Source: Ornithinimicrobium faecis (GTDB lineage Bacteria; Actinomycetota; Actinomycetes; Actinomycetales; Dermatophilaceae). From it: DNA of 64,000 nucleotides. The notes under the pieces are model-generated. The model was not told where the DNA came from. It made no database searches and saw only the letters and a program-made list of their open reading frames with translations. This document shows, piece by piece, positions 38,709 through 56,531 of this stretch. The translations under genes were made by a program, and so were the position numbers. The stretch is taken from contig NZ_CP099489.1 of assembly GCF_023923225.1 (NCBI RefSeq), forward strand, positions 3,472,001-3,536,000, given 5' to 3'. How positions within the stretch are numbered: the first letter of the stretch is position 1; each line of letters begins with the position of its first letter.

Positions 38709-39012
38709 TCGCGACTCAGCGAAAGACCGAGTAGGACCAGGAACGGGAGCCACCCCGGTCGCAGGCCACGGGCAACATCCCCAATTGGTCAGGGCCGGAG
38801 TTTGGTGAGAGTGGCAGACAAGCCCGGGCCGATGAGGCCTAAGGCCATACCCGCTGAACGGCAGCAGATCCGCTCCGCCGCACAGAGGTTCGGTTCACCA
38901 GGCACGTTTCCCCCTGCGCTGCCCCCGTCGGCCATCAAGAATCCGGTGCCGTGAAGTTGCTGTTCGTCAGCGGCGCCTGCGCACCCAGCCGCCCTGGTGC
39001 AGACTGGTGGCT

Positions 39013-40110
39013 ATGGCAGTGGAGATGGGGATATGGCGAATCAACGGCTCACAACCTCAGCGGCTCGTGCCCAGCGCGATGCCACTTGAGTCCATGCTTG
39101 AGCAGTATCTGTCTCAGGACCCATCACTTCTCGGGGATAACCTCATGATCATCGGGCGGCAGGTACGCACGCCCTATAACACCTACGTCGATTTGCTGGC
39201 CATGGACGTCGATGGAGACGTGCACGTCCTTGAGTTGAAACGGGACAAGACCCCACGCGACGTCGTGGCTCAGGTGCTCGACTACGGATCCTGGATCTCG
39301 ACATTGGACCGGGACGCCATCATTGCTGTGGCCACGGAGTACCTCCGTGAGCCATTCGAGGCAGCGTTCGGACGCGCCTTCGATGATGCGCCTGTTCCGG
39401 ACGACATCAACACAGACCTCGAACTCACAGTCGTCGCGTCCTCACTAGACCCAAGTTCAGAACGCATCGTCACGTACCTGCGTGAGTTCGGCGTCCCGAT
39501 CAACGTGGTGTTCTTCTCATTCCTAGAGGACGAGGACCGTCAGTACCTCGCCCGATCGTGGTTGGCCCCTGCCGAGAGCGCGGACGCGGTCCCGTCCCCC
39601 GGGGGCACCAAGAAGGGAAAGCGCGCCCAATGGAACGGCCAAGACTGGTACGTCAACTTTGGCGACGGACTCGGCCGGTCCTGGGAAGACGGTAGAAAGT
39701 ATGGATTCATCTCGGCGGGTGGCGGCGAGTGGTACTCACGCACGCTACGCAATCTCCCGGAAGGAGCTCGAGTCAACGTGTACCTGCCTCAACGAGGGTA
39801 CGTAGCGGTCGGCACTACCCTGCGAACAGCGGTTACATTCGACAAGGCCGAGGTCTGGATCCAGGGGACGTGGCAATCACTGGCGAGCCTGCCACTTCAG
39901 GCTCGCTATCGTCACGACCGAGAGGACTCCTTCGGCGAAGACCTCGCGGAATATGCCATCCCGGTTGAATGGAGCGTGGCCGTGCCAGAGGAGGAGGCCT
40001 ATCGGGAGACAGGGATGTTTGCCAGCACGCACAGTGCGTGCAAACTACGCCAGGACTTCACGTTGCAGAAATTGGCTGACCATTTCGGACTCAACCGAGA
40101 GAATCCATGA
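39013..40110 (+). CDS. DUF91/NucS-like endonuclease-domain protein
   Basis: A 365-residue protein. Residues ~20-150 resemble the DUF91/NucS nuclease domain: VDLLAMD (Asp60), VLELKRD (Glu74, Lys76) and QVLDYGSWI, a PD-(D/E)XK-type active site. The C-terminal half, with a WNGQDWYVNFG repeat-like segment and RVNVYLPQRGYV, is predicted mostly beta and may bind DNA or partner. Proteins of this type are often found in restriction or defence neighbourhoods. Start is uncertain: ATG at 39013 or 39025, neither with a strong ribosome-binding site. It stands alone on the plus strand in the island. Confidence 0.78.
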   Translation: MAVEMGIWRINGSQPQRLVPSAMPLESMLEQYLSQDPSLLGDNLMIIGRQVRTPYNTYVDLLAMDVDGDVHVLELKRDKTPRDVVAQVLDYGSWISTLDRDAIIAVATEYLREPFEAAFGRAFDDAPVPDDINTDLELTVVASSLDPSSERIVTYLREFGVPINVVFFSFLEDEDRQYLARSWLAPAESADAVPSPGGTKKGKRAQWNGQDWYVNFGDGLGRSWEDGRKYGFISAGGGEWYSRTLRNLPEGARVNVYLPQRGYVAVGTTLRTAVTFDKAEVWIQGTWQSLASLPLQARYRHDREDSFGEDLAEYAIPVEWSVAVPEEEAYRETGMFASTHSACKLRQDFTLQKLADHFGLNRENP

Positions 40111-40344: not shown

Positions 40345-40454
40345 CCGCGTACTGCCAACTCGCAGGCCGTGCACGCACCGGGCTTTTGGGGAAGGTCACA
40401 TAGCTCACAGTGGCCGTCACAGCACCCCGTGGCTCTGCTCAGAGCGGTCAACAT
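40341..40454 (-). CDS. Doubtful tiny Cys-rich ORF overlapping the helicase 3' end
   Basis: A 37-residue frame with CCDGHCELCD and ACTACELAVRG, spacing suggestive of a small zinc-binding unit. It begins inside the last 38 bases of the helicase gene and hands over to the next frame by an ATGA overlap. No ribosome-binding site is evident. Kept because the cysteine pattern is not expected by chance in a shadow frame. Confidence 0.25.
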   Translation of the reverse strand: MLTALSRATGCCDGHCELCDLPQKPGACTACELAVRG

Positions 40455-42693
40455 CGGAATATTGCTGCGCCGAATCCTGCAACAAGGACGACCGCTCTCC
40501 CGACCACGACACCGCCAACACATCCCTGGCCCGCGTCGCGGCCACATACAGCAGCGAGCGCTCGCGGAGCATCGCGTCGTCCCAGTCGGCCGCGCTGGTG
40601 TCGTACTCCTTCATCGACGAGGGGATCGAGCCCTCCCGCACGCCAAACAACAGCACTCGCGCGAACTCAGTCCCCTTCGCCCGGTGCATCGTCATAACGA
40701 CCGGTGCACCCGACTTCACGGACTCCGCATCGACCGCCCGGACCTCGACGCCGCGCTCAGCCAATCCGGCAACCACCCGGTCTCGTTGGAACCGGTCCCG
40801 CACGAGGATCGCCACGGTCTCCGGCGCGGGCGGCTCCTCCTCGGACGACCACGAGCGCACCAACTCCGCGGCCTGGTCCAACTCACCGGACAGCGAGTCA
40901 CAGGGCAGCACCCGCGGCACGGGCCCAGACCGTGCGGAGCGATACTCGTCGTGCTGCTCCGCCTCATCCTCGAGATCTCGATAGTCCGCACCATCCAGGA
41001 TTCCCATCGCCCACCGCAGGTTCTGTTGGGTGGTCCGATAGTTCAGTGTCAGCCGCCGTGAGCGCCCCCGCGTCTCGATCCCGAAGTGCGACAGCGTCAC
41101 CTTCTGCCCATAGATCCGCTGGTGCGAGTCCTCGGCGATGAACAGGTCATTTGGCCCCGGCGACACCAGCGCCCGCAGCAACTGCCAATGGGCGGGGGTG
41201 AGGTCCTGCCCCTCGTCGACCAGCACGTGGTCAAACGGGCGCCGCTTCGGCAGGTCCAGGTGGGCAGCAGCCAGGGTGGCCACCTCCGCGAAGTCGAGCG
41301 TCCCGTGGGCACGGGCCGACGCTCGGTAGCGCTCGATCACCGCCCACACAGCCGCTCGCTGACCACGATTCAGTGCAACGCCCCTTCCACGTCGGGGAAC
41401 CCGGAAGTACTTCTCCGCAGAAGTGATCCGGCGCGGCAGCACGATCATCGTGTACTCCGCAGCGAAGAATGCAGGACTCCGCAACTTCTCGGGCAGGTCG
41501 GCCCCGGCCGCGCTGATGGCCTCGCTCCACGCCTCGGGTCCCGTTCGGCGCGTGACGTCGGCAGTGGCGACACCGAGCACCGCTTCGGCAGCGGGAGCGA
41601 TGTCCCGCCCGGCATCCTTGAGCACCGAATGAGCCACCTGGTCGATGCCGGCGATCCGCAGTCCCCGCTCCCCCATCCCACCCGTGATCTCCACGTCCGG
41701 GTCGAGGACCCGCATGTCCCGCCGCAGAGCATCCGCCAGGTTGCGGGTGAAGGTCGTCAGCAGCACCCGAGGCGGGCCGGGCTGCAGTGCCAGCCGTCGG
41801 GCACGGTGCAGGACCACGACGGTCTTGCCGGTTCCGGCACCGCCGGTCACCTTGGCAGGTCCCCGATAGTCGCGGTCCACATACTTCTTCTGCAGCGGGT
41901 GCAGGAAGATCCGCCACGCGGCGAAGTCGGTGTCCTCGATGACGCGGCGCAGCTCCTCGTTGTCCTCGATCCAGGCGAAGGAGAGCTGGCCGGCCGGGTG
42001 CTGCAGCCCCCGGATGAGCTGTTCCTCCTCGCTTCCGGTGGTGTCCACCTCCTGCCCGAGGCTGAGTCGCTCGGTGACCTCCTCCAGCGACATGCCGGTG
42101 CTGAGGTCGATCAGCGCCAGCCCTTGCCAGTCCGCCGGGGCATCACCAGCGAGCGCCAGGACCGCCTCCTCATCAGCGACCTCCATCGCCCCCTGGGCGA
42201 AGTCCTCGTCCAGCCCGAGACCGGTCAGGTCCGCGACGCCGAGTCCGTATGCCGTGAGCAGGGAGTCCTGCATGGATGCCTTGGCAATAGGGCTGGGTGT
42301 GGATGACGTCTCAGCAGGCGCGGAGAACCCACCGGTGGCCTCAACAGCCTCGGCAGCGGCGGGCACCTCGACGCGTCGGATCTCGGCGATGCCCGAGACG
42401 GGGTTGACCCGCAGCGTAGTGCGCTCTGCCTCCCGGATGGCGTCGTCGTGCGCCCAGATCCCGTGGAACACATAGGTGACCGCGTCCTTGTTGACGATCT
42501 TGAACAGCACGGCGCGATATCCGTCATCGACCCGTCCGGTCCGCACCCGAGGGTCGGCGGAGTTGACGATCGGCTCGATGTGCAGACCCGGGAGCGAGTC
42601 ATCGCTGGAGAGCTTCTCCAGGAACGCGAAGGCCTTCTTCTTCAGGACCGGCTCAACAGTCCGTTCCTGCTTGGCCATGACGATGGTCGGCAT
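40417..42693 (-). CDS. RelE-like domain fused to UvrD-type SF1 helicase
   Basis: A 758-residue protein. Residues ~1-105 resemble the RelE/ParE toxin fold: FLEKLSSDD, PGLHIEPI, ADPRVRTGRVDDGYRAVLFK, YVFHGIWAHDDAI. The rest is an SF1 helicase: GGAGTGKTVV (Walker A, ~residue 284), LVDEGQDLTP (Walker B), LNYRTTQQNLRWA, and VMTMHRAKGTEF with LLYVAATRARDVL near the end. The ATG at 42693 shares a base with the stop of the giant helicase (TGATG), so it is the last gene of that operon; a longer start at 42756 would overlap it. Similar fusions occur in other bacteria. The catalytic state of the RelE-like part cannot be judged. Confidence 0.85.
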   Translation of the reverse strand: MPTIVMAKQERTVEPVLKKKAFAFLEKLSSDDSLPGLHIEPIVNSADPRVRTGRVDDGYRAVLFKIVNKDAVTYVFHGIWAHDDAIREAERTTLRVNPVSGIAEIRRVEVPAAAEAVEATGGFSAPAETSSTPSPIAKASMQDSLLTAYGLGVADLTGLGLDEDFAQGAMEVADEEAVLALAGDAPADWQGLALIDLSTGMSLEEVTERLSLGQEVDTTGSEEEQLIRGLQHPAGQLSFAWIEDNEELRRVIEDTDFAAWRIFLHPLQKKYVDRDYRGPAKVTGGAGTGKTVVVLHRARRLALQPGPPRVLLTTFTRNLADALRRDMRVLDPDVEITGGMGERGLRIAGIDQVAHSVLKDAGRDIAPAAEAVLGVATADVTRRTGPEAWSEAISAAGADLPEKLRSPAFFAAEYTMIVLPRRITSAEKYFRVPRRGRGVALNRGQRAAVWAVIERYRASARAHGTLDFAEVATLAAAHLDLPKRRPFDHVLVDEGQDLTPAHWQLLRALVSPGPNDLFIAEDSHQRIYGQKVTLSHFGIETRGRSRRLTLNYRTTQQNLRWAMGILDGADYRDLEDEAEQHDEYRSARSGPVPRVLPCDSLSGELDQAAELVRSWSSEEEPPAPETVAILVRDRFQRDRVVAGLAERGVEVRAVDAESVKSGAPVVMTMHRAKGTEFARVLLFGVREGSIPSSMKEYDTSAADWDDAMLRERSLLYVAATRARDVLAVSWSGERSSLLQDSAQQYSDVDRSEQSHGVL

Positions 42694-45600
42694 CAGCGTC
42701 CTTCCGTCCTGAGGGCAGCGGCAATGAGGTCCGCGTCGGGGTCGACGACCATCCATCCACCGTCGCGGAGCTCGTCGGCGAAGTCCTCGTCCGCTTCGAG
42801 CAACACGGCCACCTTGTGCTCGGGCCAGGCGATGTCGATCGGCAGGCCGTCGACCTCCACACCAACCTCGGGGACGGGCACACCCTGTGACGCGAGCTGT
42901 GCCAATAGGGCCTTCTCTGCCTCGGTGAGCTCCATCTCGCCGAGCGCGATCCAGGCTCCTGTCAACGATTCCAGCTGTTCCTCGAGCGGCGATGGGGTCA
43001 CGACCGCATCAGCCCTCAGGCCAAGCGATCGCGCGGTGACGTGCACGAAGCCCGCGGGAGTCACAGCGTTGCTGATGCGCAGCCACTCCTGCCAAGCCGC
43101 CTTGTGCGTGGGCTGCTCCAACGCCTCGCGCCGGTCATCCAGCATGACGACGGTCTCAATGTTCTGTGGCCCGGTCAGCCGGCTGACCACCACCAGGTGG
43201 TCCCGTTGCCACAGGGCTCCAAGGGAACTCCCGGCCAGCGGCTCCCCGTCGAGCACCGCGGCAGCGACCTCGGTCAGCGGACGGTCGGCGGGGACGCCGA
43301 GGGAGGTCGAGTTGACCAGGAACAGCCAGCCCAGGTTGCGGCTCAGTGCACGCCGGGGCTCCTTGTCGACCACGCGTTGCATCCTGCCGAGCAGCACCGA
43401 CAATGGCCCGTCCCGCAGGTCGTCGACCACACCCTGAGTGATGCCTCCGGCGCTGTCGCCCATTGACGCGAAGAGCTGCTCAACCGCCGCCGGGTTCAAC
43501 CACTGGGGACCAGCCTCGCCCGGCTCCTGCACCAGGTCGTCATAGGTGACGGACAGCACGGCCTTGCCGGCGTCGCGCAGGTTGGCCCGCTTCTGGGCGT
43601 CATCAGCAATCCGGTTGGTTTTCCAGTGCGCATGGAACTGCCACCCGTCGGTGAAGATGGCCACCTCGGGCACATTCGGGTCATCGGTGCGCAGCACAAA
43701 GTCTGGCTTGGCCCCATGCATGTTTTCTTGCGGCACCAGTCGCCAGACCCGGCCCTTGCCCAGCCCGGTGATCTGCAACTGGTTGCCGTTGGGACCGGGG
43801 ATCTCGTGGACCGTCGCTCCGCCAGCGGCCAGTCGCTCGGTGAAGACAGCGCGGAAGCGCAACTCGAGAGCGGACTCGCCGGACGCCGAAGCGGCCTGCC
43901 CCTGCTCGATGGTCCAGCGCATCTGCTCGGCGTCGAGGTCGTCCCAGGTCTCATCCTCACCCAGGCGGAGCAGGGACCGCAGGTGTCGCTCGGCCGAGAC
44001 GTTCGAGAGCAGCTCAACGCTCCCACCGCGGGAGAACGGCAGGATGCACCGGTGGCAGGCCTGGCGTCCCTCGTCCCGGCACTCGCACTGCGCGATGACG
44101 TCATAGGCCTTGACGAGCAGGCGCCACACCCTCTCCGCGGACGCCAGGTCGGCGAGATAGCCGGTCCCACCGGGCACCAGGTCGTGCAGCAGCAGGGCCT
44201 CCCGCACCCGTTCGCCCTCACCACCGACGACCGGCACCGGCACCGTCTCGACCTGCAGGTGGTCCGGTGCCCCACCGATCTCCTGACGCAGACCCAGCAG
44301 GAGGGACGCGGCCACGCTCGGCACGGCATACCGGTCCCCCAGCGTCACGCTGATCGGCAGGGTGATGACCACTCCCTGGGTGCGCAGCTCCCGGCTCAAC
44401 GCCACCGAGCGGGTGTCCTCGTCCTTGCTGTCGCGATAGCGGCACCACGGCCGGTGCTCGTCTCGCTGGTTGAGGTTTGCGGTGCTGTCGAGCTTGCCGC
44501 AGCCGGCGCACACCCGAAAGAGCGCGGCGGCCACCGACTGCCCGGCGATCTCCACATTCGTCACGCCCGATCGCGAACGCGGCCCGAGGTTCAGCCAGCG
44601 GATGTTGACCTTGCGATAGTGGCTGACGCCGAAGTCACCATCGGTGACATGCCACTGGTCGGCCACCTGCGCCGGGTCCAGGTCTGCTGCCGTGGCGATC
44701 GAGAAGCCGGTCCGCTTGCGCTGCTCATCCCGGTCATCGATCAGGTCGCGGTCGCGCCGCACCTCGGAATAGACGTGCTCCAGCCGCACGACATCGAACC
44801 TCTGGCCCGTGTCCTTGAGCTGGCTGCTCTCGCACCGCGGGCAGAAGGCCGGACCAGCACTCTGTTGGACGTCCAGGGCATAGCCACACTCGGCGCACCA
44901 CACCCAGCTCCGGACGTTGCTGGCGTCCTGGCCCATGTCCAGGCCGTCGATGCGCATCGCCAGGCCCCTGGCATAGAAGGTCGCGCCGGGAGCCAGCTCC
45001 CGCAGAGCCTGCGACGAGGCCCGCTGCACGGTCTCTGCCTCGGACTCATAGGTGCCGGTCTCGGGGTCGACCCAGGTGACCCGCGCTTCGAGCGTCACCA
45101 TGTCGTCGAGCAGTGTGTAGTTCGGCAGGATGCCCCGCTCCTCCAGCGCCGACACCCAGTGCTGGGTCCGCAGCTCAGCCAGCTCCCGCTTGGTCAGTTT
45201 GTATGCCGCCTCGGCCGACCGCCAGGCCCTCTTGTCGTCGTCTGATGCGGCCGGGCTCTCCGCCGCGGCCTGCAGCGACGGCAGGGCGTCCTCGATCTCT
45301 TGCCGACGACGCTCCAGTGACTCCTCGCCGCGCTGCCACTCCGTGCTGGCTCGGTGCACCAGCGCACCGAGCGATTCCTCCACATCCCAGTCAGGATCGG
45401 GCACAGCCCATCGCTTCAGCCCGTCGACGACCGCAGGGTCGAGGCCGTCGAAAGCGCCCAGGAATTTGCCGAGATAGTCCTCCGCGTGAGCCGCTGCAAC
45501 CTCAAGGACCCTGCCCAGGAAGGACTCGGGTGCCGAGCTCCGCAGCGCGTCACCGGCCTTCGTCGGCAGGGTCATCTCGCCGCTGCGGGCCAGGGAGTCG

Positions 45601-48600
45601 ATGATCGACGCAAGGTATTGCCGGCGCAGGATCTCCTCGGCATCGAGGTAGGTCGCGGGCGGGCGCACCTCCCCGTTGATGACGGACAGCGGGTTCCCGA
45701 GCTTCGGCAGCTGGTCACCGCGACCGGTCACGAACGCCAGGTTGAGGGCGTTGCCGGTGAGCCGTCCGGCGCGGCCGACCCGCTGGACATACTTCGCGAC
45801 CGAGTCGGGCAGCGAGGACAGCATGACCGTGGACAGGTCACCGATGTCGATGCCCATCTCCAGGGTGGGAGTCGCGACGAGCACGTTCGGCGCATCCGGC
45901 GAGGGGTTGGAGGCCTTGAAGCCCTCCTCGACCTCACGCCGGACCGTGTCGTGCAGCAGGCTCGTGTGCTCGTGGGCGATCACCCGACGCATGTCGGCCG
46001 AGTCATATAACCGCCGATAGAAGTTGTCGCTCCGGCTGGCGCGCTCCAGCGTGCCCCGGCACCGCACCACCAGGCAGGGGGCGCCAGCCAGCTGCCCCAC
46101 GACCTCCGGGGCGGCAGGCTGCTGGTCCTGGCAGGTGTCACAGACCAGCAGGGTGCGCCCTTCCTCCAGGTCGCTCGCCTCGGTCGCCTGGAGCCGCACT
46201 GACCCAGACGGTATGCCGTAGGCCTTCCCCTGGCTCTGTGTCTCGGTCACGGCCAGCAGGTCAGCGGCAGCCAGCGCGGCGAGCAGCCGCTCGGCAAGCT
46301 TGGCACCGTGCTGGGCGTTGACGCCCAGGCACTTGACGGCCCAGCGGGCATACCAACTCTGCGGAGAGCGCACCGTGTCCAGCCCGCTCTCCGACTGCCG
46401 AGCCAGCGGTGCCCCGACCCGGGGAAAGGCCGGCGCGGCCCGACCGGCAGGGAAGGCGGGCATGCCGGTCTTGGGGCGGCCACCCCAGATCCGATAACGC
46501 CGTCCGTCCTCGTGCAGATAGGTCCGCAGCCACTCGTGCTCAATGCCGCCATTGCGGCGCATCCGCTCGAGCAGCCCGCGCACCCAGGCCACAAGCAACC
46601 GGTCGTCGACCCGGGCGATGTCGAGCAGCTCGACCTCGTCCGAGGTGAGCACCCTGCGGGCGATGCCCAGCAGGGTGCTGCCCGGACCGGCGTCAACGGA
46701 AGCAACGATCGACCCGGTCGACTCCAGAGTCCGCCCGAAGCCGGACTGCAACCCGACCTCCAGCGCGGCGTCGAACAGCAGCCGGCGCTTGACCCAGGAG
46801 CGGTCCCTCCCGGACACGTCCCGGAGCCGGTCCGCCTTCCAGAAGCGGTCGAACGGTTCCAACAGCAGACAGTCCGGCGGCACCAGGCGATAGCGGTGGA
46901 ACTGATCGTCACCGGCCTGAGACATCACGTCCTCGACCAGAGTGTCCAGGGTCGTCGGCACCGTGCCGATCGCGTCCTTCAGCGTGGCGCGCAGCGTCAT
47001 CACGTGGGATCGCGACTGGACGAACCCGGCCCGGTGCGCCGCGTCCTGCACCGAGTCGGTGAAGACCAGGGACTTCTTCTCCGCGCTGTCCAGCGCGGCG
47101 TTGCCAAACAGGATCGACAGCGAGACGGACAGCTTGGTGGCGATCGCCGTGCCCAGGAAACGGATGCCGTCCGCCTGCTGGCACGAGGGGCAGTCGTCCT
47201 TGCGCGCCCGCTCATCGACGTCCTGCCCGGTGCGGGTGAGCACCGGCAGAATTCGCCCGGCCTTGAGCTCCTCGTCGTCCTCATCCGGTCGTCGGTCGAG
47301 CAGCGTGCGCCCCCCGACCGAGAGCCAGCGCAGCCCCTCGATGTGGTCCTCCGGTCCCTCCGCCGCGAGTGCTTTCTCGTCCTCGATCGGTGCGTGCAGC
47401 AGGGCCCGGAAGCGCCCTTCGTGGATCAGGTGGTTGCGCCGGATGTCGTGGTCCTCCGCGGCCAGGTCCTGGCCCACGGCAGCCAGGCCAACGCCCCACC
47501 CTGACCGGCCACAGTGACGGCAATAGATCGCCGGGAACGTCGCGCCAACCGTGTCCGCGTCCTCGCTGCCTGCCCATGAGCCGTCGTCGCTCCAGTGATA
47601 GGCAGGCACGGCCGAGGCGACCCGGTCGATCCGCGTCAGCTCGCGCACCCAGAAGTTGAGCTCTACACCGAGGGCCCGCCGCCCCTCGTCGGCACGGACG
47701 TGGCTGAGTGCCGCCACCAGACCCTCTAGGGCATGCAGCCGCAGGCTTTGCACGGTCTCGTCGGCCGTTCCGCGGGGGAAGAGGGCATCCACCAGGTCTG
47801 GGTATGCCGTGGCTCGCCCGGCCTCGTCCACGAGGGCCCGGACGTCGGGATGGGCTGCGATCAGTGTGAGTGCAGGGACATCTCGGACATCACCGCCGTG
47901 GAGGCATCCCAGCAGTTCCGCAGTCAACGCCTCCGGGTCGTCGACCAGGGCCTCGACCTGCGCGACGAACTCCTCGAGCTCGGGCTGCGTCAAGTCATCC
48001 AGCCGCCGGGCCTCGACCCCGACAGGACGGGCCGCATCCCCGCTCCACTCCTCCCATGACAGCAGGCTCTCGGTGACGACAGCGTCCGACTCGAAGTCCT
48101 CACCGAAGACGGTCCTTGCAAAGGACAGCATCACGCTCGGATCGCCCTCATCACCCAAAGTCGCCGAGGTCGCCACCGGGGTGATCCGTCCGAGCGGCCG
48201 CTTCCGATCCGCATCTGTGATCTCGGGGTGATCGTCGGGCCAGTGGTGCTTGAGTGCGAGACCGAGGCGTCGCAGCAGCATCGCCACATCCGTGCCCTGG
48301 GCCCCGTCGTAGGTGTGGAACTCATCCAGCACCAGGTATTGCAACGACAGCGCGCTCTGCTGCCACAGCGGCTGGTCGGCCTCGCGCAACAGGAGCTGGT
48401 CGAGCATCTTGTAGTTCGTCAGCAGGATGTCGGGTGCGCTGTCTCGGATGACCGCCCGGTCGGTGATGAGACCGGCCTCAGACACGGTGGTGCGGGTGCC
48501 GGCCTGGTTGCCGGTGTAGACCGCAGCGGTCACCGACGAGAGCGCCGGGTTCTCCGTGAGAGTGGTGGTGAGCCGCCGTGCCTGGTCGTCAGCGAGGGCG

Positions 48601-49037
48601 TTCATCGGATAGAGGATGATCGCCTTGGTGCCGGTCACACCCTCGCGCTTGGCCCGCAGGACGTGGTCGATGATCGGGTGCAGGAATGCCTCGGTCTTGC
48701 CCGAACCGGTGCCGGTGGTGATCAACGTCGGCTTCGGCCGCGTCCCTGGGCCATTCAGGCCCAACGTCGTCAGCCGTTCGTAGGCCTGCGCTTGGTGCCG
48801 GTAGGGCGTCCACGTCGGCCGCCACTCCAGGCTGCGTTCCCATCCCTCATCGGCGGGCCGGAACGGCAGCCGCAACCGCAGGTACGGCCCCTTGAAGATG
48901 CCATCATCCGGGTCCTCGAGGAACTCCTGCAGCGCCCGGCGCGGCTCCGCGTCCGCGAGAGCAAAGGTCGTCGTCAAGTAGTCGACGAGCCCGTTCGCGA
49001 GTTCACGTGCCTGCAGGGTCGGGAGGAGCTCCGCCAT
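42693..49037 (-). CDS. Giant DEAD/DEAH helicase with DUF1998 and nuclease-like tail (DruE / DrmA-DrmB-like)
   Basis: A 2114-residue protein. Helicase core: ITTGTGSGKTEAFLHP (Walker A, ~110), ILYPMNALADDQ, LVLDEFHTYDG (~245), and ATPTLEMGIDIGDLSTV with YVQRVGRAGR (~1050-1085). Several CxxC zinc knuckles follow or interrupt it (CRHCG ~507, CPSCQ ~612, CAECG...CPRCE ~1375, CAGCGK ~1507). The DUF1998 signature CRDEGRQACHRCILPF lies near 1650. The tail at ~1780-1830 (KPDFVLR, VAIFTDGWQFHAHW, DDAQKRANLRDAGK) resembles Vsr/DUF559-type nuclease domains. Size matches Druantia DruE; the domains also equal DISARM DrmA plus DrmB in one chain. Start ATG 49037 overlaps the methylase stop. Confidence 0.88.
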   Translation of the reverse strand: MAELLPTLQARELANGLVDYLTTTFALADAEPRRALQEFLEDPDDGIFKGPYLRLRLPFRPADEGWERSLEWRPTWTPYRHQAQAYERLTTLGLNGPGTRPKPTLITTGTGSGKTEAFLHPIIDHVLRAKREGVTGTKAIILYPMNALADDQARRLTTTLTENPALSSVTAAVYTGNQAGTRTTVSEAGLITDRAVIRDSAPDILLTNYKMLDQLLLREADQPLWQQSALSLQYLVLDEFHTYDGAQGTDVAMLLRRLGLALKHHWPDDHPEITDADRKRPLGRITPVATSATLGDEGDPSVMLSFARTVFGEDFESDAVVTESLLSWEEWSGDAARPVGVEARRLDDLTQPELEEFVAQVEALVDDPEALTAELLGCLHGGDVRDVPALTLIAAHPDVRALVDEAGRATAYPDLVDALFPRGTADETVQSLRLHALEGLVAALSHVRADEGRRALGVELNFWVRELTRIDRVASAVPAYHWSDDGSWAGSEDADTVGATFPAIYCRHCGRSGWGVGLAAVGQDLAAEDHDIRRNHLIHEGRFRALLHAPIEDEKALAAEGPEDHIEGLRWLSVGGRTLLDRRPDEDDEELKAGRILPVLTRTGQDVDERARKDDCPSCQQADGIRFLGTAIATKLSVSLSILFGNAALDSAEKKSLVFTDSVQDAAHRAGFVQSRSHVMTLRATLKDAIGTVPTTLDTLVEDVMSQAGDDQFHRYRLVPPDCLLLEPFDRFWKADRLRDVSGRDRSWVKRRLLFDAALEVGLQSGFGRTLESTGSIVASVDAGPGSTLLGIARRVLTSDEVELLDIARVDDRLLVAWVRGLLERMRRNGGIEHEWLRTYLHEDGRRYRIWGGRPKTGMPAFPAGRAAPAFPRVGAPLARQSESGLDTVRSPQSWYARWAVKCLGVNAQHGAKLAERLLAALAAADLLAVTETQSQGKAYGIPSGSVRLQATEASDLEEGRTLLVCDTCQDQQPAAPEVVGQLAGAPCLVVRCRGTLERASRSDNFYRRLYDSADMRRVIAHEHTSLLHDTVRREVEEGFKASNPSPDAPNVLVATPTLEMGIDIGDLSTVMLSSLPDSVAKYVQRVGRAGRLTGNALNLAFVTGRGDQLPKLGNPLSVINGEVRPPATYLDAEEILRRQYLASIIDSLARSGEMTLPTKAGDALRSSAPESFLGRVLEVAAAHAEDYLGKFLGAFDGLDPAVVDGLKRWAVPDPDWDVEESLGALVHRASTEWQRGEESLERRRQEIEDALPSLQAAAESPAASDDDKRAWRSAEAAYKLTKRELAELRTQHWVSALEERGILPNYTLLDDMVTLEARVTWVDPETGTYESEAETVQRASSQALRELAPGATFYARGLAMRIDGLDMGQDASNVRSWVWCAECGYALDVQQSAGPAFCPRCESSQLKDTGQRFDVVRLEHVYSEVRRDRDLIDDRDEQRKRTGFSIATAADLDPAQVADQWHVTDGDFGVSHYRKVNIRWLNLGPRSRSGVTNVEIAGQSVAAALFRVCAGCGKLDSTANLNQRDEHRPWCRYRDSKDEDTRSVALSRELRTQGVVITLPISVTLGDRYAVPSVAASLLLGLRQEIGGAPDHLQVETVPVPVVGGEGERVREALLLHDLVPGGTGYLADLASAERVWRLLVKAYDVIAQCECRDEGRQACHRCILPFSRGGSVELLSNVSAERHLRSLLRLGEDETWDDLDAEQMRWTIEQGQAASASGESALELRFRAVFTERLAAGGATVHEIPGPNGNQLQITGLGKGRVWRLVPQENMHGAKPDFVLRTDDPNVPEVAIFTDGWQFHAHWKTNRIADDAQKRANLRDAGKAVLSVTYDDLVQEPGEAGPQWLNPAAVEQLFASMGDSAGGITQGVVDDLRDGPLSVLLGRMQRVVDKEPRRALSRNLGWLFLVNSTSLGVPADRPLTEVAAAVLDGEPLAGSSLGALWQRDHLVVVSRLTGPQNIETVVMLDDRREALEQPTHKAAWQEWLRISNAVTPAGFVHVTARSLGLRADAVVTPSPLEEQLESLTGAWIALGEMELTEAEKALLAQLASQGVPVPEVGVEVDGLPIDIAWPEHKVAVLLEADEDFADELRDGGWMVVDPDADLIAAALRTEGR

Positions 49038-52000
49038 CACGTGCTCCGCTCGGCAAGGCGACGCTCAAACTCCGCGTAAGCCGTCCGCATGTCCGCCTCA
49101 CGATCGAGCGTGCCGAAGGGGAGCTCATAGGTGTACGCGATGCCGCTCTCCGGATGCTCTTCCGTCCGCTCCTCCTCACTGATCGCGTCGCCCTTCTTGC
49201 GCCAGACGGAGAGCACACTGTTCGGCACAAGTCGACCGTTGGCGTCGTAGGTGTAGTCCCGCTGGTCGTACCCGTGCAGCACGGCGAACTGGGTGCGGTA
49301 GATCGTGCAGAGATCGTCGACTGGCACGTCCAACATCAAGGCGACAAGGGCGTCGATCTCCACCTGCGCATTGCGCCGGTCAGCTGCTCGTCGCAGTGGT
49401 ACATTCGGCGTCCAATTCCGTGTCAGATCCCCGGACTTGTGTCGCTGCAGGACTGGTTTGTCGTCGGCGAAGGAGTCCTCCCAGCCTTCAGCCCACAAGT
49501 CGGCGTAGACGTCGGTGAGGCAGTTGAGGCGCAGTGATCGCAGCGCCAATGAGGGCACCAACCGATGGTTTAAGTCCACCATGGCAAGACGGTTGACGGT
49601 GCTCGCACTGATGCCAGACTTCGGCGCAGACCGGACTGAGAAATCAGCCAAGAGGGAACTCAAAATCCCCGCCACGATGAGCAATCTTCGTCCCTCGGGC
49701 TCCAGATCGCCAGCAGCCATCACTCCATGCACGTGTGCGGCACCGGGCGGAATGATCGCCGAGATGAGGGTGCGCTCCCCCGTGTTGGCCGCCATCGCGC
49801 GCCAGGCGACGCGGTAGTGGTCACGCGCCGAGATATCGCCCTCATCGCCCCAGTGTGTGTACCGCGCATCGTACTCCGCCCGGGACCCGGCCGGCTTGTA
49901 CGACGTCACTGGCAACGCATCGGGTGCGAGGTCCTCCAAGTCAACCGCCGACCAGTCCTGGTTATTCTTCATCGTAGGGTTCGGCGTCTTGAAGAAGGGA
50001 GCGGCGACATGCAGGTTGGGTCCCTGCAGAATGACGTCGCGCCACTCCGCTTCTCCCCACCGACTGACGAATCGGCCGGCGCGCCGGTCGCTGCGTTCGT
50101 GCCACCCTGGCGAATACGACAGGCCCAAACGGCCGATTCGCGGCGCCTTTGCCAGCCGCTCCAGAACCGAGTTGGCGACGGAGTTAACGGTATAAACCAT
50201 CCGGGTCTGGCTATGCGGCGTCCCTTCAACCTCCACGATGTCCGCCCACACCGAAAGCTCTGCTTCATCCACGTGCTGGATCCGACCACGATGAGGTCGC
50301 AAGTCCCAGAATCCATCGTGCTTGAAGCCAGGCTCCAGACCAGACCCGTCATGGCCCAACGATCGAGTCACGGTGTCGGGGTGATAAAGGTGGGCGGCAT
50401 GCAAGAAACGAATTGGACGGACGCACCCGTACACGTTCACACCAAAAGTCTTGTGATGTTCGATATCATCGAATAGCAATAATTCATTGATGAACTGCCA
50501 GTGTCTGCGCAAGCGCGCATACGTGGAAGCGCGCAACTGGCCAGCTCGGTTATCCGTGAAATGCGACTCCAAGTGGATCAGTGCGCTGACGCCGCGACGC
50601 GATGCATGACTCCAAACGTGTGACATAAAGCACCGGTACAGATCAGGCTGCAAACCCGCGAGGTAGGGGTAGTTCACACTGTCGCCAACAAATTCGCGCG
50701 TCGCAATTACATCCGCGGTCGCCTCTAAGACAACATCTTGGACGCCCGGCCGGGCGAGCGTCACCTCCATCATCACTTCACGCTCGGTCTCGCTGGGTCT
50801 TTGTGCAAGTTGCCACCAGGGGTCCCCCTCGGCCAGCAACGCATCCACATCCGCAGCGGGACGGACCCACGGTGGGTTCCCCACCTGCAGGTCAAACCCA
50901 ACCCCGGCGAACACGGTCGCGAAGTCGAGCTCCCAGTGGAAGAACCCCTGTTGCTGCGCGACGTCCTCACAGACCGCGAGCCACGGGTGACTTTCCAGCA
51001 CCTCCTCGACACGAACCGAACCGCTGTAAATGCGGTCCTGCTCCTCGGCCTCGCCCAGTTGGTCCCAGTCGGTGAGGTCCTGAAAGGTGCTCATCCAGGC
51101 GCGCTTCTTGTCGCGGGTGTCGGTGCCCAGCAGCATCGTTAAGGCGTCAAGCCATTCCTCGATGGTGGGCGGGTCGACCTCGGTCTCGGTGAGCGGCCAG
51201 AACCACAGCGCGCACCAGGCATCCATCACTCGGCGAAGACGGCGATAAGCACCATCTTCGTCGGCCAGTGACTCCTCGATCTGCTCGCGCGTGACCGCTT
51301 GTGCGTGCTCGGACTCTTCCCGGCCCCACAGGTCGAGGCGGCGACTCGACTCCTGCTCTGCGATCCGCAGACGGCGCAGGCTGATGTTCCACAGCTGCTC
51401 GACGCGCTGGGTCAGGCTCAGGAGGCGGTCGACCTGCTGCTTGGTGGGCTTGCGACGCACCGACGAACGCCACGTCTTGAGTGCCTTCACCTCGTCCGTG
51501 GCAAGGTCGCGCACCGACTTGGGCACTTCGACCGCGCTCCCCCACCCCTCTGCGGGGAGAAGGAAGTGGAAGACCTTGGCGGTCACCGAATTGCCGATAC
51601 CACCGTCTTCCATCTCCGTCGCAAGCTCGGCCAGGGGCAGGTCGTCGGGAGTGGATTTCAGCCATGCCTTGTTGCGTACGTCGGCAGCGGGATACGCTGC
51701 GCGGCGAGCGCCGACGAGGGAGTTGCCCCGGCGCAGGCGCAGACCGAACCACGGTGCCTGCAGCCCCTCCACCATGGTCGACAGCCAGAGCGACACCTCC
51801 GCCAGTTCAACGGCGGTGGCGTTGAGGTCCACGCCATAGACCTGGTGCAGCGCGATGTGGGCCTTGACCTTCTGCAGCTCCTTGGGGAACTCATCAGGGT
51901 CGATTCGGGTGCCGAGTTCGTCCTGCCGGCGAGCGAGATACTCCCGGGCCAACTGGTCGACGGCCTCGAGGGCGAATGCACCGGAGCCCAACGCCGGCTC

Positions 52001-53662
52001 GCACACCGTGAGGTCGAGGATCTCCGCAGCGCTGGTGCGCTGATCGTCCTGGTCGAGCAGTTCCTCGAGCGCCTGCTGCACGGTGAATCGGGTGAGCACC
52101 TCGGGCGTGTAGTAGGACGCGGACTGCTGCCGCTCCCGCCCGGCCAGACGGAAGACAAACGAGCCCCTGGCGTGACGGACCGCGCGGTCCTCACCAGTGA
52201 CTGGGTCCTCCTCGCGGACGAAGTCGTTCTCATCGAGGTGGTCTGCTCGATCGACCGGGACAACCCAGGAGCCCTTGGATGGGTCGCCGTTCTTGGCGAC
52301 CTCGAACAGGTCGTCCTCGGCAAAGAAGCCGGTGTAGGACATCAGGCCCTCATAAACGGCGCCCAACTGGTTGATGCCGAGCTCGACGTAGGAGATGAAC
52401 CCACGCTGGCGGCCCTTCTTCTCCTGGCTGAGGAGCAGGTGGCGCAGCACCCGCTGGACCGCCTCGTTGCCGAGTCCGACGGCGTCGATGTGGGTTGTCG
52501 CCTCGGGGCGGAACAGGTCGGCCCGCAAGGGGTTGAAATGCAGACCATCCGGCCCGTTGCTGTCCGGGTCGAGACTCGGTGTGTGCCCCCGGTCAACGAG
52601 TCCGGTCAGCAGGTGGACCGACTCATACAGGTGGGTGCCGTCGCGGCCCTGCTGGGTGTGCAGGTCGACCAGGGTGAGCTCACGCAGCCGGTCGATGCCA
52701 TAGCCCGCGTCATACTCCGAGGCACCGGTCGGGAGGACGCCCAGCTCGGGTGAGGCCTCGGCATACAGCAGGAAGAGGATCCGATAGAGGAAGCGCAACG
52801 ACTGCACCGCCAGCGGCTGCGCCTGGTCAGCAGGGAGCGGGTCGAGCCCCTTGGCACGGCGACGGTCGACGACCTCGTTGGCGATGATCTCGATGGATTT
52901 GCGGACACCCTCGCGCAAGTCCTCGGAGACCCCGACGGTGTGCTTGACGGACTCGCTCAGCACCTCGCTCCACCAGATCGACCCGTCCGCGTCGGGGCCG
53001 AGCGAGCGAGCCGCGATACAGGTCAGGGCACGGTCGATCTCACCGCCGCGCTTGGTGTCGTTGCGCTCAGCAACGAGTTGCAGGTCGATGGCGAGATAAC
53101 GCCCCTCAGGCCACCGCTCTCGCTCGGCGACCAGACACCAGCGGCCGGCCAGCGCGAGGGCGAAGTCCGGGCCGTCCTCCGCCACGAAGAGTGCCGACAA
53201 CTGGCGCGCGATCGAGGTGATCCGGGTGCCGTCCTCCAGCTCGGTCGGCTCCAGCAGCGTGTCGCCGTCCTTGGCGACCACGTCCTCGACCGCGTCGGCG
53301 GGACGCCCGGTGAGGATCGCCAGGGGCGCGGGCCCGGTCAGACCCGGTGAGGACACCCAGGTGACGGAACCCTCGGTGGCCAGCTCGAACTCCCCGGCGC
53401 GGTATCCCAGCACACCCAGCAGATCGGCATACAGCTCCCGGATCTCGGTCTCCCCCGGCCCCTCGACGAGGGCACCGAACCGACGCTCGAGGTCGCCACG
53501 CTGTTCGGTGAACCGGGACCGCGCGGTCTCGGCCTCCTCGGCGTCCCACTCCTTGCGCCGGGCGACCACCTGGGAGTGGAACGACTCGTTGCGCGCATCG
53601 GAGGTGAAGTAGTGCTCGCTGATCCACTCCTCACCGATGACGAAGGCGTCACTGGTGGCCAT
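49037..53662 (-). CDS. Large Eco57I/DrmMI/PglX-type N6-adenine DNA methyltransferase
   Basis: A 1541-residue class I SAM-dependent DNA methylase. Motif I is DLTVCEPALGSGAFALEAV (~550), with QSASYYTPEVLTRF before it, and motif IV is VGNPPWVRPA (~927), the NPPW form of adenine-N6 enzymes. About 375 residues, largely charged helix, separate the motifs. The C-terminal ~550 residues should hold target recognition; this part is encoded by less GC-rich DNA. No clear nuclease motif is seen in the N-terminal 500 residues. It lies between the SNF2 and giant helicase genes with 1-base spacing/overlap (TGACATG, TGATG), as drmMI does in class 1 DISARM. The likely job is marking self DNA. Confidence 0.87.
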   Translation of the reverse strand: MATSDAFVIGEEWISEHYFTSDARNESFHSQVVARRKEWDAEEAETARSRFTEQRGDLERRFGALVEGPGETEIRELYADLLGVLGYRAGEFELATEGSVTWVSSPGLTGPAPLAILTGRPADAVEDVVAKDGDTLLEPTELEDGTRITSIARQLSALFVAEDGPDFALALAGRWCLVAERERWPEGRYLAIDLQLVAERNDTKRGGEIDRALTCIAARSLGPDADGSIWWSEVLSESVKHTVGVSEDLREGVRKSIEIIANEVVDRRRAKGLDPLPADQAQPLAVQSLRFLYRILFLLYAEASPELGVLPTGASEYDAGYGIDRLRELTLVDLHTQQGRDGTHLYESVHLLTGLVDRGHTPSLDPDSNGPDGLHFNPLRADLFRPEATTHIDAVGLGNEAVQRVLRHLLLSQEKKGRQRGFISYVELGINQLGAVYEGLMSYTGFFAEDDLFEVAKNGDPSKGSWVVPVDRADHLDENDFVREEDPVTGEDRAVRHARGSFVFRLAGRERQQSASYYTPEVLTRFTVQQALEELLDQDDQRTSAAEILDLTVCEPALGSGAFALEAVDQLAREYLARRQDELGTRIDPDEFPKELQKVKAHIALHQVYGVDLNATAVELAEVSLWLSTMVEGLQAPWFGLRLRRGNSLVGARRAAYPAADVRNKAWLKSTPDDLPLAELATEMEDGGIGNSVTAKVFHFLLPAEGWGSAVEVPKSVRDLATDEVKALKTWRSSVRRKPTKQQVDRLLSLTQRVEQLWNISLRRLRIAEQESSRRLDLWGREESEHAQAVTREQIEESLADEDGAYRRLRRVMDAWCALWFWPLTETEVDPPTIEEWLDALTMLLGTDTRDKKRAWMSTFQDLTDWDQLGEAEEQDRIYSGSVRVEEVLESHPWLAVCEDVAQQQGFFHWELDFATVFAGVGFDLQVGNPPWVRPAADVDALLAEGDPWWQLAQRPSETEREVMMEVTLARPGVQDVVLEATADVIATREFVGDSVNYPYLAGLQPDLYRCFMSHVWSHASRRGVSALIHLESHFTDNRAGQLRASTYARLRRHWQFINELLLFDDIEHHKTFGVNVYGCVRPIRFLHAAHLYHPDTVTRSLGHDGSGLEPGFKHDGFWDLRPHRGRIQHVDEAELSVWADIVEVEGTPHSQTRMVYTVNSVANSVLERLAKAPRIGRLGLSYSPGWHERSDRRAGRFVSRWGEAEWRDVILQGPNLHVAAPFFKTPNPTMKNNQDWSAVDLEDLAPDALPVTSYKPAGSRAEYDARYTHWGDEGDISARDHYRVAWRAMAANTGERTLISAIIPPGAAHVHGVMAAGDLEPEGRRLLIVAGILSSLLADFSVRSAPKSGISASTVNRLAMVDLNHRLVPSLALRSLRLNCLTDVYADLWAEGWEDSFADDKPVLQRHKSGDLTRNWTPNVPLRRAADRRNAQVEIDALVALMLDVPVDDLCTIYRTQFAVLHGYDQRDYTYDANGRLVPNSVLSVWRKKGDAISEEERTEEHPESGIAYTYELPFGTLDREADMRTAYAEFERRLAERST

Positions 53663-53663
53663 G

Positions 53664-56531
53664 TCAGCCCTCCTGCACGGGGTGGTCGGCGGGGACGACC
53701 AGCAGCAGAGGTCGCACCAGTTGTCGGTCGGGCTTCTGCTCGCGGGCGAGGCGTTGCTCCTCGGCGACGCTCATCCGGCGGGACTTGATCTGGGATCGCT
53801 GGATGAGGGCGTCGGCCTCCTCGGTCCAGTGCTGGGCACGGTTGACCCACGCGTCGACGCGCGCCAGAGCGTCGGACTCCGCCTCGGTGAAGGCGTTGCG
53901 GAGGTGCTGCTCTGCCTCGCGCACGGCCACCGGGATGAAGCGGTTGAGGGCGCTCGCGTCGGCCACCGCGCCGGGGTTGCTCATCGCCCCGGTGATCCCG
54001 AGCGAGGCGAGCATGGACTCTGGCGAGGCATGGGGCTGGACCACTGCGAAGCCCGGCTGGCCGCTGGGGAACTCCACCTGCAGCCAGGCCGAGGTCACGG
54101 TGTGGCCGGCGCGGTTGGTGAGCGAGCCGAGGAGGAGGACCGATGGGGTGTCGACCTCGCCACGCACGGCGAAGACCTCGTTGCGGCCCAGGCTGGCCAG
54201 GGCACGGTCGCTGATCCAGTCGAGCACCGGGTGGAGCGGGCCGAGGAAGTGCGCCTCCGGCCAGGTGGAGTCGGACTCATCGCTGAGGGCGTTGGCCAGC
54301 AGCTCCTTGCCACGGGTCTTGGTCGTGACGAGCTTGAACCGGTCGGTGACCTTGCGGTCGGCGAGGTAGGACTGGGGGAGCACCTCAAGCCGCTTCTTCA
54401 GGTCCGTGGGCGGGCTGAGCTCGACGATCCGCTCGTGGGCATGCTCCCGCCAACCCACCCCGCCACCCTGGGCCGCCAGGGGCTCCTCTGGCTGGCTGTA
54501 GACCTGCACGAGTGCCTGCTTCAGGAAATCTGACGCCTCGGCATACAGGCCCCCGTGGTTCTCTGTGGTGACGGTCGTCTCGGCGGTCGGGGTCGTGCCG
54601 CTGCCCAGCAGCCGGGCCCACAGCCCGCTGAAGTCGTCGCGCTGGGCGACGTCACCCGCGTCGTCGACGACGTCCTCGAAGCTCTGGTTCCCGGCCAGGA
54701 CCTCACGGATGCGGCTCTCCTCGGCCTCGACCGTGTAGTCGCCCATCAGGCTGGCCGCGTCGCCGAGCGTGGTGTGCGCCTCGTGCTCCTTCTCGACCAG
54801 GCGAGTGAGGACGCGCAGGTCACCGGAGAACTTCGGGTGGGTCGGTTCCAGGAGCAGTGCGGTGATCTGCGGGCTCTTGCGCTGGCCGTAGCGGTCGATG
54901 CGGCCGTTGCGCTGCTCGAGCCGGATGAGGGACCAGGGGATGTCGTAGTGGACCAGCTGGTGGCACTGCAGGTGGAGGTTGACGCCCTCGGAGGCGACGT
55001 CGCCGGTGACGAGCACTCGAATGGGCGAGTTCTCCTGCTTGAAGCTCTCGACGATGGCCTGCTGGTCCTGGTCGGAGAGGCCACCGTGCAGGATCTCCAC
55101 GGCGTCGTGCGGGAGCTCGCGGTCCTTGCGGATCTTGTCGGCGAGCCAGTGCAGGGTGGCGATGCGCTCGGCGAAGATGACGATGCGTTCAGGGCTGTTC
55201 TTGGCGATGCCGATCGTGCCGAGGAGGTCCAGGAGCGCGGCATACTTGCCGCCGGTTTCCTGGCGGGCTGACTGGTTGAGTTGGCGGAGGCGTTGGAGGG
55301 CCTCGGTCTCGGTGGCCTCGGCGGGGAGCTTGTCGTTGAGGCGCTTGATCCGCTCCTTGATGGTCTCCTCCAGTGCTGCCGGGGAGGACAGGAATGCCTT
55401 GGCGAGGGTCCAGGAGAAGAGTCGGCTCCCCTTGGAGTGTGGGGTGCTGCCGCTCTGCGGGTGCAGCCAGGTGTCGGCGAGTTCGTGGGCGACGTCGTCC
55501 TCGGCGGGCGAGGCGGGGACCAGATTGTTGACCGGTTCCTTGCGCTCGGCCCACGCGGCACCGACGACGCGGGCGACCTCGGGGCTGTTGCGGTGGCGGC
55601 GCAGCACCAGTCGTTCGACCTCGTCCTCGTCGAGGGAACCGTCTGGGCGGACTGCCGTGGGCTCGAGCAGTCGGATGAGCTCGGCGAAGGACTCGGCCTT
55701 GCCGTTGTGCGGCGTCGCCGAGGCCAGGATGAGGGCGTCCGTCTGCGGCGCCAGGACGGAGGCGAGCCGGTTGTTCTGGGTCGCCGAGTTGGTGATGTTG
55801 TGCGACTCGTCGATGACCACGGCGTCCCAGCGGTGGTTGCGCAGGTGCGCAAGGTAGCGGTCGCTCTTGAGCGTGTCGATCGAGATGATGACGCGCTTGT
55901 AGAGGGAGAACGGGTTGCGCGTCGCGGGGAGCTGCTGGCGGACCCGCTGGATGCCCACCGAGTCGAGGCGGACGAACGGCAGAGCGAAGCGGGTCCACAT
56001 CTCGTGCTGCATCTGCTCAAGGACGTGGCGGGGTGTGACGATGAGGATCCGCTCACCGCGGCCCCTGCGGGCAAGTTCGGAGAGGATCATGCCCATCTCG
56101 AGAGTCTTGCCCAGGCCCACGGCGTCGGCGAGCAGGATGCGCGGTCGCAGGTTGGCCGGGTCGAGTGCGCGTCGGACGGCTTCGCGCTGATAGTCGAGCG
56201 GATCTGCCAGCGACTGCGCCGAGACCGTGATAGAGGTGTCGTTGACCGGCAGCGGGCTCTTGCGCAGCGTCGCCTCAAGCCAGAGGCGGGCCTTGCGGTT
56301 GCCCGGCGAGGCATCCCCGACGACCGTTGCCTCTGCTGGGTCGAGGACCTCGATCTTGTCGAGGCCCTGATAGAACATGGCGTTCGTGTCGCGGACCAGC
56401 TCTGTGAGGCCGCGGACTGACAGAAGGAGACCGTCCGTGGTCTGCTCGACCCCCGTGACGAGCCACTCTGCGTCGCGGACGACCACGACGGACCCTGGCG
56501 CCACTGCCAGGACGGAGCCGGTGCTAGCCAA
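53664..56531 (-). CDS. SNF2-family helicase (DrmD-like), first gene of the defence operon
   Basis: A 955-residue SF2 translocase. Motif I is ADAVGLGKTLEMGM (~131), followed by VVIDESHNITN (DESH variant), ILASATPHNGK, VTGDVASEGVNLHLQC and QRNGRIDRYGQRKSP. The C-terminal third is family-specific. Size and order match DrmD of class 1 DISARM. It starts with TTG at 56531, 5 bases after AGGAGG. It is followed by the methylase, giant helicase and RelE-UvrD genes without gaps, so the four are almost certainly one transcript. The N-terminal ~60 residues look like a small beta domain. A promoter was not clear. Confidence 0.88.
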   Translation of the reverse strand: MASTGSVLAVAPGSVVVVRDAEWLVTGVEQTTDGLLLSVRGLTELVRDTNAMFYQGLDKIEVLDPAEATVVGDASPGNRKARLWLEATLRKSPLPVNDTSITVSAQSLADPLDYQREAVRRALDPANLRPRILLADAVGLGKTLEMGMILSELARRGRGERILIVTPRHVLEQMQHEMWTRFALPFVRLDSVGIQRVRQQLPATRNPFSLYKRVIISIDTLKSDRYLAHLRNHRWDAVVIDESHNITNSATQNNRLASVLAPQTDALILASATPHNGKAESFAELIRLLEPTAVRPDGSLDEDEVERLVLRRHRNSPEVARVVGAAWAERKEPVNNLVPASPAEDDVAHELADTWLHPQSGSTPHSKGSRLFSWTLAKAFLSSPAALEETIKERIKRLNDKLPAEATETEALQRLRQLNQSARQETGGKYAALLDLLGTIGIAKNSPERIVIFAERIATLHWLADKIRKDRELPHDAVEILHGGLSDQDQQAIVESFKQENSPIRVLVTGDVASEGVNLHLQCHQLVHYDIPWSLIRLEQRNGRIDRYGQRKSPQITALLLEPTHPKFSGDLRVLTRLVEKEHEAHTTLGDAASLMGDYTVEAEESRIREVLAGNQSFEDVVDDAGDVAQRDDFSGLWARLLGSGTTPTAETTVTTENHGGLYAEASDFLKQALVQVYSQPEEPLAAQGGGVGWREHAHERIVELSPPTDLKKRLEVLPQSYLADRKVTDRFKLVTTKTRGKELLANALSDESDSTWPEAHFLGPLHPVLDWISDRALASLGRNEVFAVRGEVDTPSVLLLGSLTNRAGHTVTSAWLQVEFPSGQPGFAVVQPHASPESMLASLGITGAMSNPGAVADASALNRFIPVAVREAEQHLRNAFTEAESDALARVDAWVNRAQHWTEEADALIQRSQIKSRRMSVAEEQRLAREQKPDRQLVRPLLLVVPADHPVQEG

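Follow-up and report, generated by a model that had tools for sequence, protein, structure and literature searches.

The closest described relative of the locus reported here is ARMADA type II (armABCD), presented with anti-phage data in a preprint by Bell et al. of September 2025 (PMC12458937). As described there, its genes follow the order BrxHII/RapA-like helicase, PglX-like methylase, YprA helicase and RelE-GajB-like helicase, and the systems studied come from E. coli NCTC 12900 / ATCC 8739. In E. coli the system protects against 13 of 80 phages in a non-abortive manner, and all four genes are required. WP_000937974.1 is the type II representative ArmC of that work, which describes a BrxA-like insert, a beta-barrel zinc module and inactive EEP/Vsr domains in ArmC of type II and predicts an active Vsr-type nuclease at its C-terminus (PMC12458937). 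We have analysed a stretch of 64,000 nucleotides of Ornithinimicrobium faecis (contig NZ_CP099489.1, positions 3,472,001 to 3,536,000; hereafter the window), in which four very long genes (armA-armB-armC-armD) form what is, judged from the sequence, almost certainly an intact actinobacterial operon of ARMADA type II on the chromosome.

The region 56531-40417 of the window is occupied by four long tandem open reading frames (ORFs), all on the minus strand. The junction of armA and armB reads TGA-c-ATG, that is a 1-base gap, and the two others are TGATG stop/start overlaps, just as a previous reading made from the DNA letters only (the sequence-only reading) had described them; its SNF2 helicase, methylase, 2114-amino acid (aa) DUF1998 helicase and UvrD assignments also agree with the Pfam domains. 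The reference for comparison was the E. coli chromosomal locus (L072) encoding WP_000937974.1, whose arm genes sit in an array with Zorya II genes and two genes labelled Druantia III (the label, including that of DruE WP_000383117.1, was given from the place in the array described in PMC12458937). Gene set and order are the same in both loci for all four genes. In BLASTP comparisons ArmA was 35% identical to WP_001041505.1 (479 bits), ArmB 34% to WP_001229642.1 (720 bits) and ArmD 32% to WP_000218177.1 (301 bits), while ArmC aligned to WP_000937974.1 in two pieces with 28% and 40% identity (411 + 224 bits). Furthermore, the eight residues that were mutated in the E. coli work (PMC12458937) are all identical in the window: K136/D236 of E. 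coli ArmA correspond to K142 (Walker A) and D241 (Walker B), G605/N971 of ArmB to G559/N929, K110/D234 of ArmC to K115/D239 (numbered from the GTG at 49040) and K266/D454 of ArmD to K311/D514 (numbered from the ATG at 42756). The sequence-only reading had proposed a distinct anti-phage system or subtype, a proposal to be abandoned if an existing model already described exactly this gene set. The operon has the clearly testable features of ARMADA type II (PMC12458937) and is a fresh example of that system, not a new system or subtype.

Quick maximum-likelihood trees of ArmC, one with 21 rows and one with 12 rows that omits a decayed row and agrees with the larger one, group the window protein with E. 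coli ArmC and with other loci of type II order (support 100 and 99 in the Shimodaira-Hasegawa-like approximate likelihood ratio test). Loci of the class with type I order fall outside this clade. The trees also bear on the possibility that the operon is a Druantia type III system (DruE) with acquired neighbours, which is suggested by the match of ArmC to the DruE3 models of PADLOC (282 bits). E. coli DruE likewise falls outside the clade of the window ArmC, though on a long branch that leaves its exact placement unsure, and the window ArmC aligns to E. coli DruE WP_000383117.1 with only 121 + 84 bits versus 411 + 224 for E. coli ArmC. Neither DruH nor any other Druantia partner appeared among the PADLOC matches listed for the operon and the scanned flank proteins. 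Membership in Druantia thus fails, as the defining partner DruH was not found among the matches listed, and we consider this origin extremely improbable.

The defence library used, the PADLOC-DB 2.0.0 models (2023), does not assign the operon to any single system and gives instead a partial DrmD, a type IIG model, a partial DruE3 and NERD-UvrD/GajB matches. A variant class 1 DISARM consisting of DrmD and DrmMI plus a DrmAB fusion and an extra helicase would account for the matches of ArmA to the DrmD models (310 bits in PADLOC, 337 bits in NCBIfam) and of ArmB to DrmMI (171 bits). However, the 337 bits are below the NCBIfam cut-off of 610 and the match falls into two stretches, a drmB gene of its own was not found, and ArmC matches DrmA weakly (best 56 bits) compared with its 282 bits to DruE3. 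No phospholipase D family (drmC) was found by Pfam in the four operon proteins and seven flank proteins, and the direct homologues of the window proteins are ARMADA proteins. Membership in class 1 DISARM fails on the DrmD cut-off, on separate drmA and drmB and on drmC, making this variant very improbable. Of the DISARM/Druantia-like composite proposed in the sequence-only reading, what stands is a defence operon related to both systems and distinct from them. The composite impression is explained by the partial DrmD and DruE matches and the type IIG label: the 2023 library labels ARMADA type II genes as type IIG plus pieces of DISARM and Druantia. The absence of drmC noted in the sequence-only reading agrees with the Pfam result, but a nuclease is probably not lacking, given the putative domain at the end of ArmC described below.

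The type IIG label comes from the PADLOC model PDLC03611 (REase_MTase_IIG), which covers ArmB over its full length (1485 bits) and would favour a type IIG restriction-modification enzyme beside unrelated helicases. So complete a match suggests that the model itself was built from ArmB-like proteins, and Pfam finds only methylase families in ArmB. Moreover armB is found linked to the other three arm genes in distant taxa, and in E. coli, as noted above, none of the four genes is dispensable (PMC12458937); we therefore give this explanation very little credit. The linkage, a check called for by the sequence-only reading, is seen in loci of the class, in plasmids and in E. coli. ArmD matches at E (expect value) up to 1e-60 were found in 72 of 394 genomes of the class, this genome counted, and the neighbourhood was read at one place in each of the 37 top-ranked among the 71 other genomes (G292 and a second place in G038 were skipped). 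There, armC lies directly before armD in 17 of the 37 loci, 14 of them with all four genes and three cut by contig ends. Six named loci came from the scan of a genome collection: the complete gene set is present in four, in one of which a contig end truncates armA, at a fifth locus armA-armB are followed after ~4 kb by armC and the locus ends before any armD is visible, and the sixth (L011) has armA-armB only. Among plasmids there were 194 matching records, and the six loci read from them all keep the four-gene order, armC being annotated as two genes in L016 and a small gene lying between armB and armC in L094. At least 80% of the L015 operon is carried in one place by 513 of 5426 E. coli genomes. 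As the four-gene arrangement recurs in other taxa, it is not a product of chance.

The C-terminal stretch of ArmC, a protein whose translation also contains CxxC motifs, was aligned for 21 sequences, the window's and those of 20 out of 29 loci. Residues F1729, W1766, D1780, D1798, G1799, H1803, D1814 and R1818 are invariant in these 21 sequences and E1726 is nearly so. Thirteen of the 21 members matched PF18741, a restriction-nuclease family (best E 1.7e-5), and one matched the Vsr family PF03852 (E 0.095). These motifs and profiles point to a Vsr-like PD-(D/E)xK nuclease domain fused to the C-terminus of ArmC.

For ArmD, the sequence-only reading had named an SF1 helicase with a toxin-like domain. 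The UvrD part is confirmed by Pfam, and the RelE-like part is suggested by weak profile matches. A profile of 31 N-terminal sequences (the window and 30 of 48 fragments) gave five matches against PDB at E up to 10, all of them toxin-type chains: two YoeB (E ~0.006), RelE3 (0.33), a 'toxin-like protein' (0.64) and a 'Killer protein' (0.75). Among the members, three of 31 matched Pfam ParE_like (best E 0.0014) and one ParE_toxin (0.14). In a relative on a Streptomyces plasmid this segment of ArmD reads RHRKHVY, which we take to be RelE/YoeB-like, and the fragment alone matches a toxin-like chain (E 0.072); most ArmDs have an HD motif in place of this kind of segment. The N-terminus of ArmD thus likely has a RelE-like fold, with an RNase role that is only putative.

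Several observations weigh against the assignment to ARMADA type II or against parts of it. Global identity to the E. coli ARMADA proteins is 32-37%, which leaves room for another trigger, methylation site or phage range. The genes are not always linked: in 20 of the 37 class loci armC does not lie directly beside armD (18 are solo RelE-UvrD genes at 33-36% identity, one, in G321, is at 43% and one, in G282, is decayed), and at L011 armA-armB are followed by 8.4 kb with no armC or armD match. Regarding the nuclease, the window stretch itself matches PF18741 with E 0.009 and 16.5 bits, below the curated cut-off of 38.2, and its profile search against PDB gave six matches at E 0.39 to 0.76, none of them significant. 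One of these, 3r3p 'Mobile intron protein', is presumably a Vsr-fold nuclease, but at E 0.6 it provides no evidence. As for ArmD, the N-terminal fragment of the window protein alone matched no toxin family in Pfam or PDB, the best RelE match of the profile is weak (E 0.0058), and two of the 31 members matched the inactive-nuclease family NA-iREase3 at E 0.0016, about equal to ParE_like; the domain may be a binding module.

Within the ArmC trees the actinobacterial proteins, the window's included, form a clade of their own (support 100 for 12 rows in the 21-row tree and 99 for six rows in the 12-row tree), separate from the ArmCs of E. coli, Nostoc, Microvirga and Martelella (the last in the 21-row tree only). 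This could be read as an ARMADA type II with changed function in this lineage, for example a divergent actinobacterial subgroup with another trigger. Yet domains, order and catalytic motifs are unchanged and give no sign of a different mechanism, and we regard such a change as unlikely. The ARMADA type II assignment makes the window locus a complete, chromosomal, high-GC example that is distant in sequence from the E. coli systems tested and can help to sort out the features that are essential.

By analogy with the E. coli system, ArmB would mark host DNA by base methylation, probably N6-adenine, as a self mark. DruE is a helicase-nuclease that loads on 3' single strands (PMC13192584), and ArmC, like the YprA/DruE helicases, might load on an exposed single strand or on unmarked incoming DNA, translocate along it and cut with its Vsr-like nuclease. 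The least certain roles are those of ArmA, which may remodel or displace bound proteins and so keep the track open, and of ArmD, whose UvrD motor and RelE-like domain could process phage RNA or RNA-DNA intermediates.

RelE-UvrD proteins also occur as solo genes. ArmD identity alone cannot separate linked from solo copies, because the linked locus of G038 is also at 35%. Among the 18 solo loci of the class (L075-L092), the four compared (L076, L081, L084 and L085) have proteins closer to E. coli ArmD than to window ArmD, and the 20-kb stretch of each also contains a SNF2-methylase set, of type I order or of another kind. The 43% homologue of G321 (L064) lies ~4 kb downstream of a YprA-SNF2-methylase set of type I order, on the same strand. 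Of 38 relatives three carry armB, namely this genome, G411 (at 84% identity) and G402, whose copy (locus L054) is interrupted by stops. In the decayed relative G282 (L057), armB and most of armC are missing. A methylase-free ARMADA was considered for this locus and dropped, as its 336-aa gene consists of an armC-tail-like part and a part matching elsewhere in G290 and looks decayed; the YprA-like gene of G282 has relatives in two of 60 other genomes.

The features of the operon and its surroundings are collected in Table 1. Two starts are possible in the armC reading frame, GTG 49040 and ATG 49037. The longest armD ORF starts at ATG 42756 and an alternative start lies at 42693. The latter appears more likely: it corresponds to Met 22 of the long ORF, which is invariant in 52 aligned sequences (51 of 120 listed relatives were taken in) and this start overlaps the upstream stop.

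Table 1 Features of the window; positions are those of the window unless marked as contig
Feature	Position	Strand	Basis
armA, RapA/BrxHII-like SNF2 helicase, 955 aa, TTG start	53664..56531	-	ORF, Pfam, PADLOC, BLAST
ArmA SNF2 domain	56192-55656	-	Pfam
ArmA Helicase_C	55247-54885	-	Pfam
armB, PglX/YeeA-like class I DNA methyltransferase, 1541 aa	49037..53662	-	Pfam, PADLOC, BLAST
ArmB S-adenosylmethionine (SAM) motif G559	51988-51986	-	comparison with E. coli ArmB
ArmB Eco57I-type methylase domain	51847-50858	-	Pfam
ArmB NPPW motif N929	50878-50876	-	comparison with E. coli ArmB
armB-armC stop/start overlap TGATG	49035..49039	-	sequence read
armC, YprA-family DEAD helicase with DUF1998 (MZB), 2114 aa from ATG	42693..49037	-	Pfam, BLAST, trees
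ArmC DEAD	48794-48252	-	Pfam
ArmC Helicase_C	45968-45759	-	Pfam
ArmC MZB (DUF1998)	44309-44043	-	Pfam
ArmC C-terminal stretch with putative Vsr-like PD-(D/E)xK nuclease domain	43434..43943	-	conserved residues, profile matches
armC-armD stop/start overlap TGATG	42691..42695	-	sequence read
armD, RelE-like domain (likely) fused to UvrD/GajB-like SF1 helicase, 758 aa from likely start	40417..42693	-	Pfam, PADLOC, BLAST
ArmD N-terminal domain, likely RelE/YoeB-like	42367..42693	-	profile of 31 sequences, weak matches
ArmD UvrD	41898-41107	-	Pfam
ArmD UvrD_C	40698-40501	-	Pfam
SNF2 protein (DrmD/RapA-like), 1111 aa	37961-34626	-	PDB, NCBIfam
HelD/HelR-like SF1 ATPase, 684 aa	34629-32575	-	PDB, NCBIfam
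NucS-C-like protein	39007-40110	+	PADLOC
RNase T/BRCT/TerB-domain protein	24476-25840	-	PADLOC
Hypothetical ORF	57713-58735	+	
MADS-like operon, continuing to contig ~3543317 (L052 3-8318)	59375-64000	-	
Gyrase-A/ParC-type gene, 1138 aa	contig 3544005-3547418 (L052 9006-12422)	+	

The ARMADA operon is located in a defence island. To its left, a SNF2 gene and a HelD-like gene overlap each other. Their best PDB matches by sequence were RapA for the SNF2 protein (104 bits) and HelD for the other (87 bits). In NCBIfam the HelD-like protein matched HelR/HelD first (121 bits) and the SNF2 protein DrmD (313 bits), DpdE (190) and then RapA (165), all below the cut-offs. Likeness to RapA is common to BrxHII helicases (PMC12839542), so that the RapA match alone is no sign of RNA polymerase binding, and the HelD match seems more telling for this pair. 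The two genes are adjacent and in the same order in seven of the 394 class genomes (split into pieces in G196), and an eighth genome has only the SNF2 gene and a ninth only the HelD-like gene (E limits differ, 1e-90 and 1e-30 respectively). Neighbours of the pair vary between genomes. Five of the nine neighbour proteins scanned with PADLOC (E up to 1e-15) matched defence families, namely HmaC, HEC-05, DruE, PDC-S68 and, weakly, a type II restriction enzyme, and the other four gave no match. Among the open-licence papers listed, no title names a two-gene defence system of the SNF2-UvrD or RapA-HelD kind, and PMC12839542, queried for these terms, returned neither UvrD nor HelD. The pair is possibly an undescribed defence module, and as such a better lead for new biology than the ARMADA operon. 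A broader scenario, in which actinobacterial ARMADA type II is a functionally separate subgroup acting here with its island neighbours, the SNF2/HelD-like pair being perhaps an independent undescribed module on RNA polymerase and phage transcription, is speculative and rather unlikely.

Right of the ARMADA operon lies a MADS-like operon that begins beyond the window. It includes a UvrD helicase, a MAD6-like NERD-kinase (353 bits, cut-off 460), a MAD7-like protein (390 bits, cut-off 410) and a HerA-type ATPase (69 bits to PADLOC mad8, 88 bits to DndH) whose part within the window matched no NCBIfam MADS model. The hypothetical ORF between the two operons matched no family, and none of the 53 loci compared contains a relative. 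Convergent with armD is the gene of a NucS-C-like protein, PADLOC candidate PDC-S11 (467 bits). Farther to the left, the RNase T/BRCT/TerB-domain protein matches the PADLOC candidate PDC-S48 (532 bits) and may be an ordinary actinobacterial exonuclease. To the right of the island there is an extra gyrase-A/ParC-type gene that shares 95% identity over residues 10-838 with a second copy at 1921756 and has ~300 more C-terminal residues; among 27 other genomes searched, a near-full-length match was found only in G394. No empty island site was defined because of the match pattern of the flanking genes: the AMP-binding gene of the left flank is matched in six of 28 genomes, this one counted, and each of the 28 has one to three matches to the gyrase-A/ParC-type gene of the right flank.

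Among known systems, Druantia type III (druH, druE) has the YprA-family giant helicase in common with the window operon, which adds methylase, SNF2 and UvrD genes. Class 1 DISARM (drmD, drmMI, drmA, drmB, drmC) is alike in its SNF2 helicase and PglX-like methylase, to which the window proteins are related through DrmD and DrmMI, whereas in the window the drmA and drmB functions reside in one protein nearer to DruE/ArmC and a RelE-UvrD gene is added. ARMADA type I shares YprA, BrxHII-like and PglX-like genes, but usually begins with the YprA gene, and the RelE-GajB-like gene is a described feature of type II. The E. coli ARMADA type II differs in its surroundings, since the window island has the SNF2/HelD-like pair and the MADS-like operon, and none of the 15 window flank proteins scanned with PADLOC is a convincing Zorya or Druantia partner. 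It is alike in the four genes, their order, the main domains, the eight mutated residues and the position of ArmC in the tree, and also, at the profile level, in the Vsr-like nuclease on ArmC and probably in the RelE-like-UvrD fusion.

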